A stretch of 64,000 nucleotides of DNA from Thioclava marina (GTDB lineage Bacteria; Pseudomonadota; Alphaproteobacteria; Rhodobacterales; Rhodobacteraceae), in contig NZ_MPZS01000001.1 of NCBI RefSeq assembly GCF_002020135.1, positions 682,001-746,000 on the forward strand, read 5' to 3'. A program made the position numbers and the translations under genes. Positions within the stretch are counted from its first letter, which is position 1. Every line of letters starts with the position of its first letter. The notes beneath the pieces are model-generated. The model made no database searches. It was not told where the DNA came from and was given only the letters and a program-made list of their open reading frames with translations. Of this stretch, positions 20,980 through 32,635 are shown in pieces.

Positions 20980-22044
20980 TCAGCCCGCGAGCAGCGCCAC
21001 GAGCCCCAGCCCCAGCCCGACCAGAAGCACCAGCGAAAGCGTCACGGTCGCAATCACCCGCGGCCCGGCGGCGGCCACGGCACGCGCATCGACGCCCAGC
21101 CCCAGCGCGGCCATCGCGATCACCGTCAGGATCGAAGCGCCCTGCCCCATCGGTGCCAGCGCCAGATGCGGGATCACCCCGGCCGAACGCGCCGCGATCA
21201 TCGCGAGAAAGCCCAGGATGAAGAGTGGCGGCATCAGCCCCTTGCGTACCTTTCCCGAGACATTCGGATTGCGCCCCTCTTCGGGCAGGCGCGAGGCCAC
21301 GAGTGACAGCACCACCGTGATCGGTCCGAGCATCAAGACCCGCACCAGCTTCACCAGAGTGCCGATCTGGATCGCGCCATGCCCCATCGGCGCAGCGGCG
21401 GCCAGAACCTGCGGCACGGCATAGACGGTCAGACCCGACAGGATACCGTAATGCACCGAGCCCATCGTAAGCGCGTGTCCCAGAAGCGGCAGAAGCAGCA
21501 CGACCGCCACGCCCAGCACCGCGGTGAAGGCGATGGAGGCGCTTACATCGTCGCTATCGGCTTCGATCACGGGGGCGACCGCGGCGATCGCGGAATTGCC
21601 GCAGATCCCGTTGCCGCAGGCGATCAGCAATGCCATGCGCGCGGGCAGACCGAGCGCACGGCCCAGCAGATACGCACCCGGCACCACGAGCGCGACCACC
21701 GCGACGATGCCGATCAGAAGCGCCGGTCCGACAGACAGCAGCGTCTGCGCGCTCACCGAGGCCCCAAGCAACACGATAGCGATCTCGAGCACCGTCTTGG
21801 CCGAGAAGGAAATACCCGAGAGAAAAAACCATTGCGGCTTCCAGAACGTCCGCACCATCGCCCCGATCAGGATCGCCAGCACCAGCGGCTCGAGCCATTG
21901 CGCCCCAAAAGCCACCTGCTCGGCGCGCGCGGCGACCTCGGCAAGGGCGGCGACACCGATGCTCAGCACCAGACCCGGCGCGATTTCGCGAAGTCGCTGA
22001 TGGGGACGGCGCAGGGCTTGGGGAACGGAGATCTGAAGCGCCAT
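20980..22044 (-). CDS. YeiH family (UPF0324) putative sulfate/anion exporter
   Basis: Integral membrane protein of 354 residues with about ten helices, of the YeiH/PSE family. Landmarks are LAILIGAMVRTFWKPQWFFLSGI, KTVLEIAIVLLGASVS, and CGNGICGNSAIAAVAPVI, a conserved re-entrant-like segment. Members have been proposed to export sulfate or sulfite-related anions; the transported ion here is not shown. ATG 22044 follows AAAGGA at seven bases. It is divergent from a LysR-type gene, the same pairing as yeiH-yeiE in enterobacteria, which strongly suggests control by that regulator. Confidence 0.9.
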   Translation of the reverse strand: MALQISVPQALRRPHQRLREIAPGLVLSIGVAALAEVAARAEQVAFGAQWLEPLVLAILIGAMVRTFWKPQWFFLSGISFSAKTVLEIAIVLLGASVSAQTLLSVGPALLIGIVAVVALVVPGAYLLGRALGLPARMALLIACGNGICGNSAIAAVAPVIEADSDDVSASIAFTAVLGVAVVLLLPLLGHALTMGSVHYGILSGLTVYAVPQVLAAAAPMGHGAIQIGTLVKLVRVLMLGPITVVLSLVASRLPEEGRNPNVSGKVRKGLMPPLFILGFLAMIAARSAGVIPHLALAPMGQGASILTVIAMAALGLGVDARAVAAAGPRVIATVTLSLVLLVGLGLGLVALLAG

Positions 22045-22133
22045 GGCAGGATCCTTTCGCAATCGCAGCAATTTCTTGTCTCGAGTAATTGAGCCCGGAC
22101 ATTCATTCTTCAAACGAAATGTTTTTATGATTA

Positions 22134-22152
22134 TGATCGCTATATTCGATCA
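22134..22152. promoter_or_regulatory. Palindromic LysR-type operator candidate
   Basis: TGATCG-CTATATT-CGATCA is a perfect six-base inverted repeat with a seven-base spacer and fits the T-N11-A rule of LysR regulators. It ends 11 bases before the lysR start and 90 bases before the yeiH start, so binding could repress its own gene and activate the divergent one. Confidence 0.55.
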
Positions 22153-22163
22153 ATGAGGCCAAG

Positions 22164-23057
22164 ATGACTCCAGAACAGCTTCGCGTCTTTGTCACCGTGG
22201 CCGAGATGGAGCATGTGACCCATGCCGCCCATAAACTGAACATGACCCAGTCGACCGCCTCGGCCGCGATCGCGGCGCTCGAGGGGCGTCACGGGGTGAA
22301 GCTCTTCGACCGGATCGGACGCGGGATCGTCCTGACCGAAGAAGGGCGCGCTTTTCTGCCCGAGGCACGCGCGGTGCTGGCGCGGATCGCCGAGGCCGAG
22401 GCGATGCTGGCCGAGACGCGCGGGCTCGAGCGCGGCCATATTCGCATGGTCGCGAGCCAGACCATCGCAGGTTATTGGCTGCCGCCCCATATCGCGGCGT
22501 TCCGCAAGGCACGTCCCGGCATCGCGGTGACGCTGGAAATCGGCAACACTCAGGAGGCGGCGGCAAAGATCCGTGAGGGCGCGCTCGACCTGGCACTGGT
22601 GGAAGGCGAAATCGACGATCCGAAACTGGAACGGCGCAGGATCGGCGCGGATGAGCTGGTGCTGGTAAGCGCCTCGCCCACGCCTGCCCGACTCGACCCG
22701 GCCGACCTGTGCGCCGCCGATTGGGTCCTGCGCGAGGAAGGTTCAGGCACACGCTCCAGCGCAGAGGCCGCGCTCGCCCCGCACGGGCTGACGGTCGCGC
22801 AGATGCGCGCGCCGCTGGTCTTGCCATCGAACGAGGCGGTGCTGAGCGCTGTCGAGGCGGGCGCGGGGATGACGATCCTCTCGGCGCATGTGGTTGCACG
22901 CTCGCTGCGGATCGGGACGCTGCATCGCTGGCCCCTCGCCTTGCCGCCGCGCCCCTTCTACGTGCTGCGCCACCGAGAACACCATGTCAGCCATGCCGCG
23001 CGCGCTTTTCTTGATCGGCTCGCACAAGCGCATTCGGCGCGGGGTCAGCCGGACTGA
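22164..23057 (+). CDS. LysR family transcriptional regulator
   Basis: Cytoplasmic regulator of 297 residues: an N-terminal winged helix (residues 1-60, LRVFVTVAEMEHVTHAAHKL and MTQSTASAAIAALEGRHG) and a periplasmic-binding-like effector domain from about 90 (IRMVASQTIAGYWLPPHI). The HTH differs from most LysR proteins in the EMEHVTHAA segment, which resembles the CysB/YeiE branch. It is divergent from the YeiH-type exporter and should control it, with a palindrome between the two starts. Its 3' end overlaps that of the response regulator gene on the other strand by 13 bases. Confidence 0.93.
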   Translation: MTPEQLRVFVTVAEMEHVTHAAHKLNMTQSTASAAIAALEGRHGVKLFDRIGRGIVLTEEGRAFLPEARAVLARIAEAEAMLAETRGLERGHIRMVASQTIAGYWLPPHIAAFRKARPGIAVTLEIGNTQEAAAKIREGALDLALVEGEIDDPKLERRRIGADELVLVSASPTPARLDPADLCAADWVLREEGSGTRSSAEAALAPHGLTVAQMRAPLVLPSNEAVLSAVEAGAGMTILSAHVVARSLRIGTLHRWPLALPPRPFYVLRHREHHVSHAARAFLDRLAQAHSARGQPD

Positions 23058-25937: not shown

Positions 25938-28268
25938 CTACTCCTTGCAACCGGGTACGAGCGATTTCGGAATGATGGCATGAACGCCGAGATTGCCATC
26001 CACGACCTGCGTTACACCGAAATCGACCGCCGCCGAGATATGTGCGATCGCCTGATCCTCGGTTAGACCGAAACGCGCCATCAGGAAACGGCGCGCCTTG
26101 CGGAAGGCATCCCGCATCGCGAGGTCGAGCGAGGATTTCGCATAAACCTCACTCTGCCCCTTGGAACCGAATTCGGCGAGATAATCCGGATGGGAAAAAC
26201 CGGTCAGGACCCAGGCATCCGCCGTCTCGATCAGCGGATAGGTGATGTCCGCGATCGGCGTGCCGCGCTTGTGCAGCCGGATTGTGACCCTCCCCGTCAT
26301 CGAACATTCGATCGCGGTGCCTGACAGTTCTCCGTCACCCTGCGCCGCATGGGGATCGCCAATCGACAGCAACGCGCCGCGCACCGAGACAGGAAGGTAG
26401 ACCGAGGTTCCCTTGCCCAGACGCCAGTTGTCGATATTGCCGCCGAAATAGGCCGGGGGCACGGAGTCGATCAGATTGGCCTCGCGCGGGGCAACCGCGA
26501 TCACCCCGAAATGCGGTCTCAGCGGGACACGCAGAGGCGGATCCGGCGGGGGCTCGAACTCGACCGAGCCGGACTTCACCGGGATGCCGGGATAGTCGTA
26601 AGTCGCATGCGTCACGCCGAACGGGTCGGTTTGCGGCTTCCAGCGATAGGAATAAAGCATTTCAGCGTGACCCGACCCGTCATCGTCCTGATGAACTTCG
26701 TAGATCGTGACGGTCTCGCGCGGGTTCGGGGCCGTCAGCAGGTCCGAATAATGGTATCCCCACCAGGCCGAGACGGTGCTTCCGAATACCCGCCCCTCAT
26801 ATCCCGGCGCGCGGCTGGGGCGTGGGGTCATGTCATCGATATGGACCTCGACCACGTCGCCGGGCTCCGCGCCTTCGACATGGATCGGGCCGGTACAGAT
26901 ATGAACGCCAAAGCCTTCCCCGGCCCCTCGCCCGAAGACCGAGGCGTCCTGCGGCCCTGCCCCACGCCGATCGACGCCCTTGCGCTCACCATCCCAGAAG
27001 AACACCTCTTCAGCGGCCGGGTCGCCCTTGATCATCAACTCGCGCGCGTCGGTTGCGTGCTGGGTCAGGGTCTCGACGATCACATGATCCCCGGGCCGAA
27101 CCGACAGAACAGGGGCGAGCGAGCGGCTGAAATATCCCCAATGAACCGTGTCCGGGCCAACGTTCAGATGATGGGTCTGACCAGGCTGCGCGGTGCTGTT
27201 GGACGGCTTGGCAGGCAGCAACCGGCGGGCAGGACGCGCCAGCGTCGCCCGCGGCTGGAACCGCCCGAGCGCCGAGATCGGCCAGCCGCGATTTTCCACC
27301 CCGCCCGCGCTTTCGCGCCGGGCTTCGGTAATGCTCGCGCGAAAGGCGCCCGGAGGCTGGCCGAAGCGCTGCTTGAACAAGCGGTTGAAATTGGCCGCAT
27401 CGCCGAAACCGCAATCATAGGCGACATTGGCGACCGAGAAATCGGGCTCGCCAGGGCTGGAAAGCAGCGCGCGTGCGCGCTGCAGACGACGCTCACGCAG
27501 ATACTGAGAGAAAGTCTCGCCGTTCCGCTTGAACAGACGCTGCATGTAACGCTCTGAGATCCCCTCCATCTGGGCGACCGTCTTCGCGTTCAGATCATTG
27601 TCGCCCAGATGGGATTCGATCGTCTGCGCGACACGTCCCAGCAGCCCTGAAAAGGCCAGACGCTGTGCGACATCAGATCCCGCCTTTCTGGGAAGGCAGA
27701 AGAACAGATCAGTCAGTTGCTGCGCGACGGCCGCCCAATCGGCGCCATGTAGCCGTTCCATTTCGGCTGCGGTCGCCTCGATCGCCGCGGCGAAGATGCT
27801 CACGATACTCTCATTGGGAAATACCCGCGGTGCCGCCAGACCGGTATTGGTGGAGCGCCGCCCGAGCAACAGCGCCTCGGGCAGCGTCAGGCAGACGGTG
27901 CGGCTGTTGCGTCCGAACCGGATGTGCCAGCCGGGATCGGTGGGCACCAGTCCCAGCTCTCGGCCACGCACGACGATACCTTCGTCACCACGCACGATCT
28001 CGATCGCCTCGTCGAGAGGCAGCACGATCAGCGGCGCGACACCTCGCCGGGCGATCGGCGACAATTCACGCCCCGTTGCAGAGAGCCGCGCCAGCATCAG
28101 ATCCGGCATCTTTCCATGCGCCAGCCCGGAGCGGTAATTTCCAAGGCTCGCCGGAAGGATCTCGGGGCTCCAGACCTCGAGCAGCCCGATCGCATCGAGA
28201 AATTCCCGCCAGGCCAAGTCGCGCTGATCATTGGAATAGGACTCGCTCTGGAAACGGCTCACCGGCAT
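25938..28268 (-). CDS. AraC-type regulator fused to full-length acetamidase/formamidase
   Basis: A 776-residue single frame. Residues 1-200 look like an AraC_binding_2-type sensor. Residues 215-312 are an AraC/XylS double helix-turn-helix (AQMEGISERYMQRLFKRNGE; DCGFGDAANFNRLFKQRFG). After a linker rich in Arg, Ala and Pro (313-365), residues 366-776 are an acetamidase/formamidase with the same 411-residue length as the stand-alone neighbour, sharing blocks such as VHWGYFS, GAGEGFGVH and IGDPHAAQGDGELSGTAIE. There is no stop or frameshift between them and no ATG at the junction; a weak GTG occurs in the linker. ATG 28268 is the likely start (AAGGGAAG upstream); 28337 is an alternative. It presumably regulates the amide block, with the enzyme domain as sensor, feedback element or co-produced activity. 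Confidence 0.88.
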   Translation of the reverse strand: MPVSRFQSESYSNDQRDLAWREFLDAIGLLEVWSPEILPASLGNYRSGLAHGKMPDLMLARLSATGRELSPIARRGVAPLIVLPLDEAIEIVRGDEGIVVRGRELGLVPTDPGWHIRFGRNSRTVCLTLPEALLLGRRSTNTGLAAPRVFPNESIVSIFAAAIEATAAEMERLHGADWAAVAQQLTDLFFCLPRKAGSDVAQRLAFSGLLGRVAQTIESHLGDNDLNAKTVAQMEGISERYMQRLFKRNGETFSQYLRERRLQRARALLSSPGEPDFSVANVAYDCGFGDAANFNRLFKQRFGQPPGAFRASITEARRESAGGVENRGWPISALGRFQPRATLARPARRLLPAKPSNSTAQPGQTHHLNVGPDTVHWGYFSRSLAPVLSVRPGDHVIVETLTQHATDARELMIKGDPAAEEVFFWDGERKGVDRRGAGPQDASVFGRGAGEGFGVHICTGPIHVEGAEPGDVVEVHIDDMTPRPSRAPGYEGRVFGSTVSAWWGYHYSDLLTAPNPRETVTIYEVHQDDDGSGHAEMLYSYRWKPQTDPFGVTHATYDYPGIPVKSGSVEFEPPPDPPLRVPLRPHFGVIAVAPREANLIDSVPPAYFGGNIDNWRLGKGTSVYLPVSVRGALLSIGDPHAAQGDGELSGTAIECSMTGRVTIRLHKRGTPIADITYPLIETADAWVLTGFSHPDYLAEFGSKGQSEVYAKSSLDLAMRDAFRKARRFLMARFGLTEDQAIAHISAAVDFGVTQVVDGNLGVHAIIPKSLVPGCKE

Positions 28269-28361
28269 GTTTTCAACACTTCCCTTCCGCGCATTGGGGT
28301 GCGGACTACCGGTGCCGGATGCTAGTGAACCGCCCATGACGTGACCAGTTTCGCCCCTTGC

Positions 28362-29597
28362 TCAGGAAAAGAGATCCTTGCGGATCGTTCCGTGAACGCC
28401 CCAATTTGCATCAACGACCTGCGTGACGCCGAAATCTGCGGCAACTGACATAAGCGAGACCGCTTCGTCCTCGCTGAAATGGCGGGTCGTCATCAGGAAG
28501 CGGCGCAGCTTGCGGAACGCATCGCGCATCGCGAGATCGAGACTCGAATGCTGCGCAACCGTCGACTGCCCCTCCAGCCCGAGCGTCTGGAGATAGTTCG
28601 GGAAGGTGAAGCCATAGACGGCCCACTGGTTGTCGTTTTCCATCAGCGGGTGGTCGAGACCTTCGAGGATCGTGCCTTCCAGATCGTCCTTCTTGTGAAG
28701 GATGAATTCGAAATCACCCGTCAGGGAGGTCTCGATCGCGGTCCCGCTCAGCTCGCTGTCGCCCTGCGCGGCATGGGGATCGCCGACCGAGAAGAAAGCG
28801 CCTTCCACGGCGACCGGGTAATACATCCGGACCCCCTTGCCGATGCGCCAGTCGTCAATGTTCCCGCCGGTATAGTTCGGCGGGATGGTGCTGACGAATT
28901 CCGCCTCGGACGGCGCAAGCCCCATCGTGCCGAAATGCAACCGGGCGGGGATCCGCACGCCGGGCATGATGTTCTCGCGATGCTGCACGAGGTTGTGGTC
29001 CACGCGCACGCCCGGATAGTCGATCGTGGGATGGGTGATCCCGTCCGGATCGGTCTGGGGCGTCCAGACATAGTTGTAGACCGGCTTCGCGATGGGCTCG
29101 CCGCTGGTGTCGAGTTCGTAGATCGTGATCACCTCGCGCGGTTTGGGCTCCTCGATCAGGTCGTGATAGTGAAAGCCCCAGTTCGCCGACGCGTTCGACC
29201 CGAAACAGCGCCCGGCATAACAGGCCGAGCAGCTTGGCCGCGGCCGGATGTCGAGCACGCGCACTTCCAGGATGTCACCGGGCTCCGCCCCCTCGATGGC
29301 GACCGGACCGGTCATCAGGTGAACCCCCAGACCCTCGCCCGCGCCGAAGGTGAACGGCGGCTCGATCGAGCCCGCGCCGCGACGCGAGATCGTCTTTTCT
29401 TCCTTGGTCCAGCGGAACACGGCCTCGGCGCCGGGATCATCCTTGACCATGCGCTCATAGTCGTCATTGGCGTGATGGGTGAGCGTCTCGATCGTGGCGC
29501 GGTCCCCTGATTTGAGGGTCAGAGCCGGAGTGACGCTCTTGCTGAAATACCCCCAGTGAACGGTTTTCGGGGACACCGGTAACGTGAAGTGGCGCAT
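28362..29597 (-). CDS. Acetamidase/formamidase family protein
   Basis: Amide hydrolase of the FmdA/AmdA family, 411 residues, without the CxxC insertion of the 24150 gene. Family motifs include TVHWGYFSKS (12-21), GAGEGLGVHLMTGPV, SVGDPHAAQGDSELSGTAIE and FGVTQVVDANWGVHGTI near the C-terminus. By eye it is about half identical to the enzyme part of the downstream fusion, so they are duplicates that diverged. It lies about 90 bases upstream of the fusion start and follows the fused ABC transporter gene. Expected reaction: amide plus water to acid plus ammonia; actual substrate not known. Confidence 0.92.
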   Translation of the reverse strand: MRHFTLPVSPKTVHWGYFSKSVTPALTLKSGDRATIETLTHHANDDYERMVKDDPGAEAVFRWTKEEKTISRRGAGSIEPPFTFGAGEGLGVHLMTGPVAIEGAEPGDILEVRVLDIRPRPSCSACYAGRCFGSNASANWGFHYHDLIEEPKPREVITIYELDTSGEPIAKPVYNYVWTPQTDPDGITHPTIDYPGVRVDHNLVQHRENIMPGVRIPARLHFGTMGLAPSEAEFVSTIPPNYTGGNIDDWRIGKGVRMYYPVAVEGAFFSVGDPHAAQGDSELSGTAIETSLTGDFEFILHKKDDLEGTILEGLDHPLMENDNQWAVYGFTFPNYLQTLGLEGQSTVAQHSSLDLAMRDAFRKLRRFLMTTRHFSEDEAVSLMSVAADFGVTQVVDANWGVHGTIRKDLFS

Positions 29598-31327: not shown

Positions 31328-32245
31328 TCAGTCGGCCAGAACCAGTTTCGGCTCTTCCATCTGATCGGCGGGCAGGTTCCACTTCGTCATCAGCGTTTCC
31401 TGCAGACCCGATTTCTGGATCTCGGTCAGCGCGGCCATGATCGCGGCGCGGAAGTCGTGATTGTCGCGCGGCACGGCGATACCCACCGAATAGGGCAGTG
31501 TCACAGCGGTCGCTTTCGACAGCTTGTCCGGGTAAGCCTTGACCGCACCATCGACGGTGTTCACGTCATTGATGTAGGTGTCGGCACGCCCCGACAGGAT
31601 CGCCTGAATGCAGTTGGCGTTGTTGTCGTAAAGCTGGATTTCGGGCGCGGGCTTGCCTTCGGCCTTGCACTGTTCGGCCAGCGCCTGGATCAGCGGCACC
31701 TCGACATAGCCGGTGTTTTCCGCAGCCGTCGTTCCACACAGCGAGGTATTGATCCCGGTGATGTTCTTCGGGTTGTCCTTCGCCACGAGCACGCCGTCAT
31801 AGACCTTCAGATAGGTAATGAAATCGGCCGCTTTCGCGCGATCTTTCGTGGCGTAGATATCCGAGATCACGATATCGGCCTGCCCGGCTTCCAGCGTGGT
31901 CAGCAGTGCGGCGAAAGTCACTGGCTTGTAGGTCATCGAGAAGCCGAGGCAATCGCCGATCGCTTCCCCCAGATCGATATCGAAACCGACATATTTCGAC
32001 GGATCGTTCGGATCGAGCGCCTCGTAGCCCGGGGTGTGCGGGTTGATCGCGTTGACCAGCGTCTTCCCTTTCAGTTCGGGGTACTTCTCTTGCAGGGCGG
32101 CACAGGCTGCCGGCGTTTCGGCATGTGCAGCGCTACCGAAGGCGATGAGAAGTGAGCCGGTCGTCATCACGGCACCACACAACATGCCTGCGCAGGTCAG
32201 GCTTCGAAACAGGAGAGATCCCGCAAGTTTCTGAGACAGTTTCAT
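31328..32245 (-). CDS. ABC transporter substrate-binding protein, family 3
   Basis: Periplasmic binding protein of 305 residues, class of amino acid/opine receptors. The signal peptide is long (about 42 residues, ending near AAHA). The mature part shows the SBP_bac_3 signatures GFDIDLGEAIGDCLG and GQADIVISDIYATKDRAKA. Cysteines in the mature protein (CAAL, CLG, LCGTT, QC, NC) could form disulfides. ATG 32245 follows AAGGGAG at six bases. It is the first gene of the leftward amide block, so the transcript would begin in the 390-base gap upstream. The ligand is probably small and polar; nothing more can be said. Confidence 0.92.
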   Translation of the reverse strand: MKLSQKLAGSLLFRSLTCAGMLCGAVMTTGSLLIAFGSAAHAETPAACAALQEKYPELKGKTLVNAINPHTPGYEALDPNDPSKYVGFDIDLGEAIGDCLGFSMTYKPVTFAALLTTLEAGQADIVISDIYATKDRAKAADFITYLKVYDGVLVAKDNPKNITGINTSLCGTTAAENTGYVEVPLIQALAEQCKAEGKPAPEIQLYDNNANCIQAILSGRADTYINDVNTVDGAVKAYPDKLSKATAVTLPYSVGIAVPRDNHDFRAAIMAALTEIQKSGLQETLMTKWNLPADQMEEPKLVLAD

Positions 32246-32635
32246 TATACGCTCCCTTGGCCAGGTTTATGTTTGACTTGGACCAATCGGATCGTAGGAG
32301 CGCGAAACAGGCGTGGCGTTGTATCCAGCCGCACTATCGATTGTAATTTTACTGCCCCTCAGACGGTTATCGGCCAGAATTTAGGCAAACGCCTCCAACG
32401 GGCGCATTCCCCTCGGGCACGCAAGAAATTCAGGGAGATCCAGTCGAAGTGCACCCTTACGAAGAACCGGGATCTTGTAGCTCTGCACCGGCGACGTCGC
32501 GACGACGGTCGCTCCGTTCGGCTTGCGGATGCGACTCAGATCGGTCCGCTTGGCTGAACAGAGATTGCCAGCGTCGGGAAACCCGATCGGATCTTCCGAT
32601 CCTGAACAGGCCACATTCAATCATTTCTGGGGGGA
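32246..32635. other. Gap between the amide block and tRNA-His
   Basis: About 390 bases with no supported gene. It must hold the promoter of the amide block and the end of the tRNA-His transcript. GGATC-GGAA-GATCC (leftward) is a small hairpin near 32590. No clear sigma-70 pair was found that I would defend. Confidence 0.4.

Follow-up and report, generated by a model that had tools for sequence, protein, structure and literature searches.

An AraC-type regulator fused to a full-length FmdA/AmdA amidase recurs in Alpha- and Betaproteobacteria beside a free partner amidase

In the Thioclava marina window (the whole stretch of DNA analysed here, 64 kb in length), a single open reading frame joins an AraC-type transcriptional regulator to a full-length FmdA/AmdA amidase. 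The same fusion occurs in other Alpha- and Betaproteobacteria, where its parts are conserved and co-inherited, the enzyme retains its conserved polar residues, a free partner amidase is encoded close by, and a candidate operator is found upstream of the partner operon. We lean towards reading this protein as an AraC-type activator that switches on an operon for amide uptake and hydrolysis, with an amidase built into the regulator itself. Considering the conserved helix-turn-helix (HTH), the conserved candidate operator and the constant partner gene, a working regulator would be the simplest account, and we think it very probable, judging from sequence, that the fusion is a true regulator of its partner operon.

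The fused reading frame

The frame runs from 28268 to 25938 on the minus strand, its sole stop being the terminal one. It was laid out as follows, with domain limits approximate where so marked:

25938..28268, minus: AraC-type regulator and FmdA/AmdA amidase fusion (P0001), 776 aa; translated ORF, Pfam and PDB match
27654..28268, minus: AraC_binding_2-like N-terminal domain, about residues 1-205; sub-threshold Pfam match, beta-rich and then helical in the model
27318..27653, minus: AraC-type double HTH, about residues 206-317; HTH_18
27189..27305, minus: linker, residues 322-360, predicted disordered, containing RGWP; pLDDT below 50
25941..27186, minus: FmdA/AmdA amidase domain, full-length, about residues 362-776; Pfam, 3b9t and Foldseek

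An earlier note on this DNA had claimed an AraC regulator and a full-length amidase within a single 776-residue frame, which translation and Pfam confirm, the N-terminal domain remaining sub-threshold. An alternative ATG at 28337 would yield 799 residues; most homologues have an ATG at, or a few codons from, the position that aligns with the 776-residue start. Pfam searches with the 799-residue form gave 86.7 bits for HTH_18 (cut-off 33.6) and 111.2 bits, in two stretches and likewise above cut-off, for FmdA_AmdA; AraC_binding_2 reached 24.4 bits against a cut-off of 27, and this weak score leaves the N-terminal domain poorly defined. The closest PDB relative is 3b9t, matched over residues 384-796 of the 799-residue form (E 1.8e-155, 522 bits).

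A structure model built from 29 fused sequences has a mean pLDDT of 79, falling below 50 over residues 322-360, and the halves are predicted to be joined by a flexible linker. In Foldseek comparisons, the C-terminal part superposes on 3b9t with a TM score of 0.90 by target, and the N-terminal part aligned to the AraC-like activator CuxR (5nla), at lower rank and with poor superposition.

The window sequence also bears out the statements that the junction contains neither a stop nor an in-frame ATG, and that the stand-alone neighbour is 411 residues long (28362..29597). Of the common start codons, the junction has in frame a GTG, at Val324, and a TTG, 26 codons ahead of the HWG motif. GC content by codon position is coding-like on either side of the linker; across linker codons 313-366 it is 0.70/0.67/0.80 at positions 1/2/3, and a second position that nearly equals the first fits the Arg/Ala/Pro content of this region.

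Recurrence, neighbouring genes and conservation

A homologue scan, restricted to one genome per species, returned 179 relatives, of which 80 were kept. The AraC part and the amidase share one open frame in 28 of these 80 loci, in 51 the amidase is free, with no AraC part fused next to it, and in the only interrupted one, from Bradyrhizobium pachyrhizi (L099), an assembly gap, seen as a stretch of N, breaks the linker of the fusion. Counts of 29 below are the window plus the 28 loci. The hosts include Ancylobacter, Labrenzia, Rhodopseudomonas, Bradyrhizobium, Novosphingobium and roseobacters, as well as Pandoraea, Paraburkholderia, Oxalicibacterium and an Azoarcus MAG. On plasmids, a single place matches at least 80% of the query in 16 records, and seven of these copies were examined (L119-L124, L130): four are translated CDS without an internal stop, one is an unannotated frame open for 783 aa, one is a single CDS by annotation alone, and one, from a Rhizobium johnstonii plasmid (L122, 7580-8101), has a break within the sensor half and is annotated as a pair of genes.

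Within its class the fusion is rare, being present in 2 of 289 sampled genomes with the window's own counted, and it was not found in 60 relatives, 15 of them congeners, where the strongest match (102 bits) covers only amidase residues 577-770. It is this distribution that would suggest a horizontal gain. A genomic island at tRNA-His was considered and rejected, as the window contains no further copy of any 14-mer of the tRNA, and its GC content here is unremarkable.

The fusion probably has a single ancestry. In a quick 88-row amidase tree without bootstrap, comprising 30 fused rows (the 29 and the interrupted L099) and 58 free ones, with five distant and 23 near-copy free rows left out, the fused amidases lie on one side of a branch from the 58 free ones (SH-aLRT 95). 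A larger tree of 116 rows, with L099 labelled apart, requires three changes of the fused label and is poorly resolved at its base, so that a single origin is likely but not proven. Pairwise distances in the sensor and HTH correlate with those in the amidase (r 0.94 and 0.93, respectively), and by this measure the three parts have diverged together; none of the 28 fused homologues has separated again. In one Bradyrhizobium locus (L114, 1600-4935), a separate AraC-type gene, 41% identical over the HTH, lies about 0.8 kb from a free amidase, possibly representing an unfused arrangement.

A free amidase is found in the same locus as the fusion in all 29 cases. In 15 it lies upstream and is read in the same direction as the fusion; in the other 14 it is on the opposite strand, upstream in 13 and downstream in one. 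Far from being confined to a single operon, the fusion belongs to a recurrent family with this constant partner. A Tat-like leader of the RRxF type, identified by pattern and by eye, precedes 13 of the 14 opposite-strand partners (for instance in L088 and L058) and none of the 15 on the same strand, which suggests that gene layout and the compartment of the partner are linked. In the window, the partner is upstream of the fusion on the same strand, behind an ABC importer, and the surrounding genes are:

31328..32245, minus: family 3 solute-binding protein, first gene of the operon; SBP_bac_3, 92.1 bits
29640..31283, minus: ABC permease and ATPase in one protein, amino-acid type; ABC_tran 126.6 bits, BPD_transp_1 44.7 bits
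28362..29597, minus: free partner amidase, 411 aa, no leader seen; FmdA_AmdA, 118.7 bits
25530..25931, minus: RidA/L-PSP family protein directly downstream of the fusion; Ribonuc_L-PSP, 100.8 bits
24150..25469, minus: third FmdA/AmdA amidase, 439 aa, behind RidA; 177.8 bits

Further away (20980-23057), a YeiH-type exporter gene is divergent from a LysR regulator and is apparently unrelated. Relatives of the solute-binding protein occur in 10 of the 28 other fused loci, at 72-88% identity, and relatives of RidA in two; annotated plasmids show the same succession, from binding protein through ABC, amidase and fusion to RidA. In Caballeronia the fusion is divergent from the binding protein-ABC-amidase operon, an arrangement often seen between a regulator and the genes it controls. 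On a Caballeronia zhejiangensis plasmid (L123, 278-2022), nitrile hydratase genes are situated near this operon, and hint that the substrate could be an amide derivable from a nitrile. A ring-hydroxylase gene separates fusion and partner in L051, and in the Azoarcus MAG (L053, 3494-5235) an extra, very typical FmdA (607 bits) lies just upstream of the fusion.

Conservation is distributed very unevenly along the protein. Mean identity over 14 lineages is 0.63 for the amidase, 0.46 for the HTH, 0.22 for the N-terminal domain and 0.17 for the linker; by sequence identity, the amidase is the most constrained part of the fusion and the N-terminal domain is hardly above the linker. Compared with free amidases, the fused domain appears less constrained, because 43 of the 144 positions common to at least 95% of 81 free sequences are relaxed in it, the other 101 being equally conserved. 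At 41 of these positions the residue is also identical in five of five distant amidases, and 31 of the 41 are invariant in all 29 fused sequences. Among the 31 are polar residues shared with distant family members and kept in 29 of 29 (H456, D471, N611, D613, D638, H640, Q643, E647 and E654), the polar exceptions among the 41 being T374 (18/29) and T753 (28/29). At position 403, Gln is found in 27 of the 29 fused sequences and His in 81 of 81 free ones, and position 625 is Leu in every fused sequence, Tyr in 79 of 81 free ones and again Leu in the five distant amidases. A fused-specific active-site loop at residues 433-454 was also considered, and dropped since free relatives such as L060 and L062 have the same loop.

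Outside the amidase, W20, R212, S238, R240, R261, F288, P306 and R310 are invariant, as is a linker motif, RGxP (R327 G328 x P330), present in 29 of 29 and reading RGWP in the window (27276-27287). The variable residue is W, H, R, L or N; as R occupies it in only part of the family, RGxP cannot be an AT-hook in general. The motif is absent after the HTH of 11 free and five plasmid AraC-like ORFs, which says little because most of them end at that place. An ATG falls between RGxP and HWG in 7 of 29 fused sequences, at scattered places (the window GTG at Val324 precedes RGxP and is outside this count). As for the suggestion of internal starts, the linker GTG is indeed present in the window, but we do not favour an internal start yielding free amidase as something common to the family.

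A candidate operator upstream of the partner operon

Two elements were located upstream of the solute-binding protein gene:

32316..32345, minus: candidate operator, boxes TACAAT and TACAAC 22 bp apart; motif search and leave-one-out scan
32291..32296, minus: -10-like hexamer TACGAT, 49 bp from the operator start; gapless promoter alignment

Motif discovery used 12 of 15 collected operon promoters and gave a 30-bp motif scoring 188.3, against 85.1-95.9 in six shuffles of the 12, with a strong site in 10. The candidate operator consists of two nACAA or nCCAA boxes 22 bp apart, with TGCG between them. When 13 promoters were aligned gaplessly, the C-A-A of the proximal box was invariant, and a hexamer beginning with TA started at position 49 in eight, 48 in three and 47 in one, i.e. 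in 12 of the 13, with none in L045. This spacing would place the proximal box at about the -35 position, where sites for AraC-type activation are generally found.

How specific is this site? Leave-one-out scans covered eight of the ten matrix members (L045 and L059 were not included), and in the window the site at 32316-32345 scored 24.6, with a runner-up of 11.6 in the 64 kb. A consensus searched genome-wide has its single perfect match at the window site, by construction, the pattern having been written with that site in view, so that only the uniqueness is informative; one more match has one mismatch, and at two mismatches or fewer there are 30 matches versus 44 for a reversed control. Fifteen congeners without the fusion contain no perfect consensus match.

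With upstream regions set by hand from predicted starts, the best site of the locus lay upstream of the partner operon in 10 of 21 fused loci outside the matrix, compared with 3 of 33 control loci that have a free amidase and no fusion, these controls by themselves giving a Fisher p of 0.045. Collapsed by lineage, the ten lineages outside the discovery set gave, when combined, a median p of 1.6e-5 and a worst-member p of 1.4e-4 (L047 and L123, which are in the discovery set and not in the matrix, were left out of these p-values), against a median p of 0.24, a best-member p of 0.005 and a worst-member p of 0.95 for the controls. In held-out lineages, the candidate operator tends to be found again ahead of the partner amidase. 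It was not found in the three Pandoraea loci (p 0.49-0.57), and fell below rank 4 in L055, L057, L070, L100 and L047.

Proposed function, rival accounts and related regulators

A recurrent family with both a partner amidase and a candidate operator makes a working transcription factor the likeliest reading. We infer that it would bind DNA and activate rather than repress: the double HTH would bind the two nACAA boxes and recruit RNA polymerase to an operon comprising the solute-binding protein, the ABC importer, the free amidase, the fusion itself and RidA. After uptake, the amide would be bound by the fused amidase domain, which keeps its conserved polar residues, and probably be hydrolysed slowly there; the occupancy of the enzyme domain would set or extinguish the activating state, coupling the two halves, and the free paralogue would carry out the bulk of hydrolysis. 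From the retained residues, catalytic competence of the fused domain seems probable. Two features hint that the amidase half participates in sensing, namely that no other part is as strongly constrained and that the linker motif is invariant; whether it actually controls the state of the regulator strikes us as evenly balanced. More tentatively still, we posit an active amidase domain as the sensor, which reads and also destroys the amide so that the switch resets itself, with the N-terminal domain serving mainly as a dimer arm and the RGxP linker relaying the signal; beside a partner with a Tat-like leader, the fused copy could then be a cytoplasmic gauge of amide escaping the exported enzyme.

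The most serious rival, which we nevertheless consider unlikely, is an ordinary AraC regulator that senses its inducer through the N-terminal domain, the amidase half being a functional enzyme that is simply expressed and inherited along with it and has no effect on DNA binding. A domain of the AraC type is indeed present at the N-terminus, which in other AraC proteins binds the ligand, the residues for catalysis seem kept, and a linker that is long, variable and predicted to be disordered may let the halves move freely. However, that same linker has a motif invariant in 29 of 29, the supposed sensing domain is barely conserved (0.22, as against 0.63 for the amidase), no fused homologue out of 28 has come apart, and a free amidase is present anyway.

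Perhaps, instead, the amidase half is a degenerate sensor that only binds amides, without catalysis. We regard this as improbable, since the polar residues common to distant members are invariant in all 29 and the Leu625 typical of fused sequences is found in the five distant amidases too, even if Gln replaces His403 in 27 of 29, 43 of 144 free-conserved positions are relaxed, and BzdR offers a precedent for an enzyme fold becoming a sensor (PMC3602430). A protein that is mainly an enzyme, with an AraC half left as a relic after loss of regulation, might be expected from several RefSeq names that read acetamidase/formamidase only, but is very improbable given an HTH better conserved across lineages than the N-terminal domain, the eight invariant residues from W20 to R310, and a candidate operator that tracks the fusion. 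Finally, a sequencing or assembly artefact, or two genes misread as one (the latter already discounted in the earlier note), has practically no chance: interrupted copies exist, but the break in L099 is a run of N and that in L122 is in the sensor, away from the junction, and 28 independent one-frame records rule out both this and the idea that homologues always split there.

Returning to the favoured reading of an activator with a built-in amidase, few proteins unite a catabolic enzyme with a DNA-binding regulator, and those that do are prime cases of metabolism being read directly by promoters. The fusion makes two ideas testable, that an enzyme can act as ligand sensor for an AraC-type activator and that its catalysis terminates the signal, and a fused and a free amidase at each locus, in many genomes and with a defined candidate operator, provide a ready-made comparison. 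Even if only the regulator part were true, this would yield amide-responsive promoters and a function for genes named as plain amidases.

The fusion is a further kind within an already known class of enzyme-regulator fusions. Ada likewise joins an AraC-type HTH to an enzyme, a methyltransferase; its reaction is methyl transfer in DNA repair, whereas the fusion contains a catabolic amidase. Trifunctional PutA unites catabolic enzyme and DNA-binding domain in a single polypeptide (PMC5293562), and the fusion resembles this trigger enzyme in having the same combination near the operon concerned, with both halves apparently intact by sequence. PutA is a repressor with a ribbon-helix-helix; the fusion uses an AraC-type HTH instead, has an additional N-terminal domain and is accompanied by a free paralogue of its enzyme. 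BzdR, an HTH with a shikimate-kinase-like domain, is presented as a regulator evolved from an enzyme-like domain (PMC3602430); the fusion too includes an enzyme-derived domain, but compared with BzdR as described there it keeps the conserved polar residues of the enzyme.

Separate AraC-type regulators beside related genes are described for nitrile/aldoxime clusters, where NitR accompanies nitrile or amide hydrolysis genes (PMC8955678), and upstream of amiD, whose product is an amidase-signature enzyme and not an FmdA/AmdA protein (PMC11573777). On these descriptions, the fusion is similar in that its AraC-type HTH adjoins nitrile or amide hydrolysis genes, and differs in that a whole amidase forms part of the regulator. 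With the structures of the FmdA/AmdA family (3b9t, 2f4l, 3tkk, 2wkn) it shares a full-length domain, and it differs from the family in its N-terminal AraC part, in Gln403 and in having no leader peptide. We found no functional description of the AraC-amidase architecture in searches of one open-access library, and to that extent the same claim in the earlier note is borne out. Fusion proteins of this kind are already in databases, where they are named after either half.
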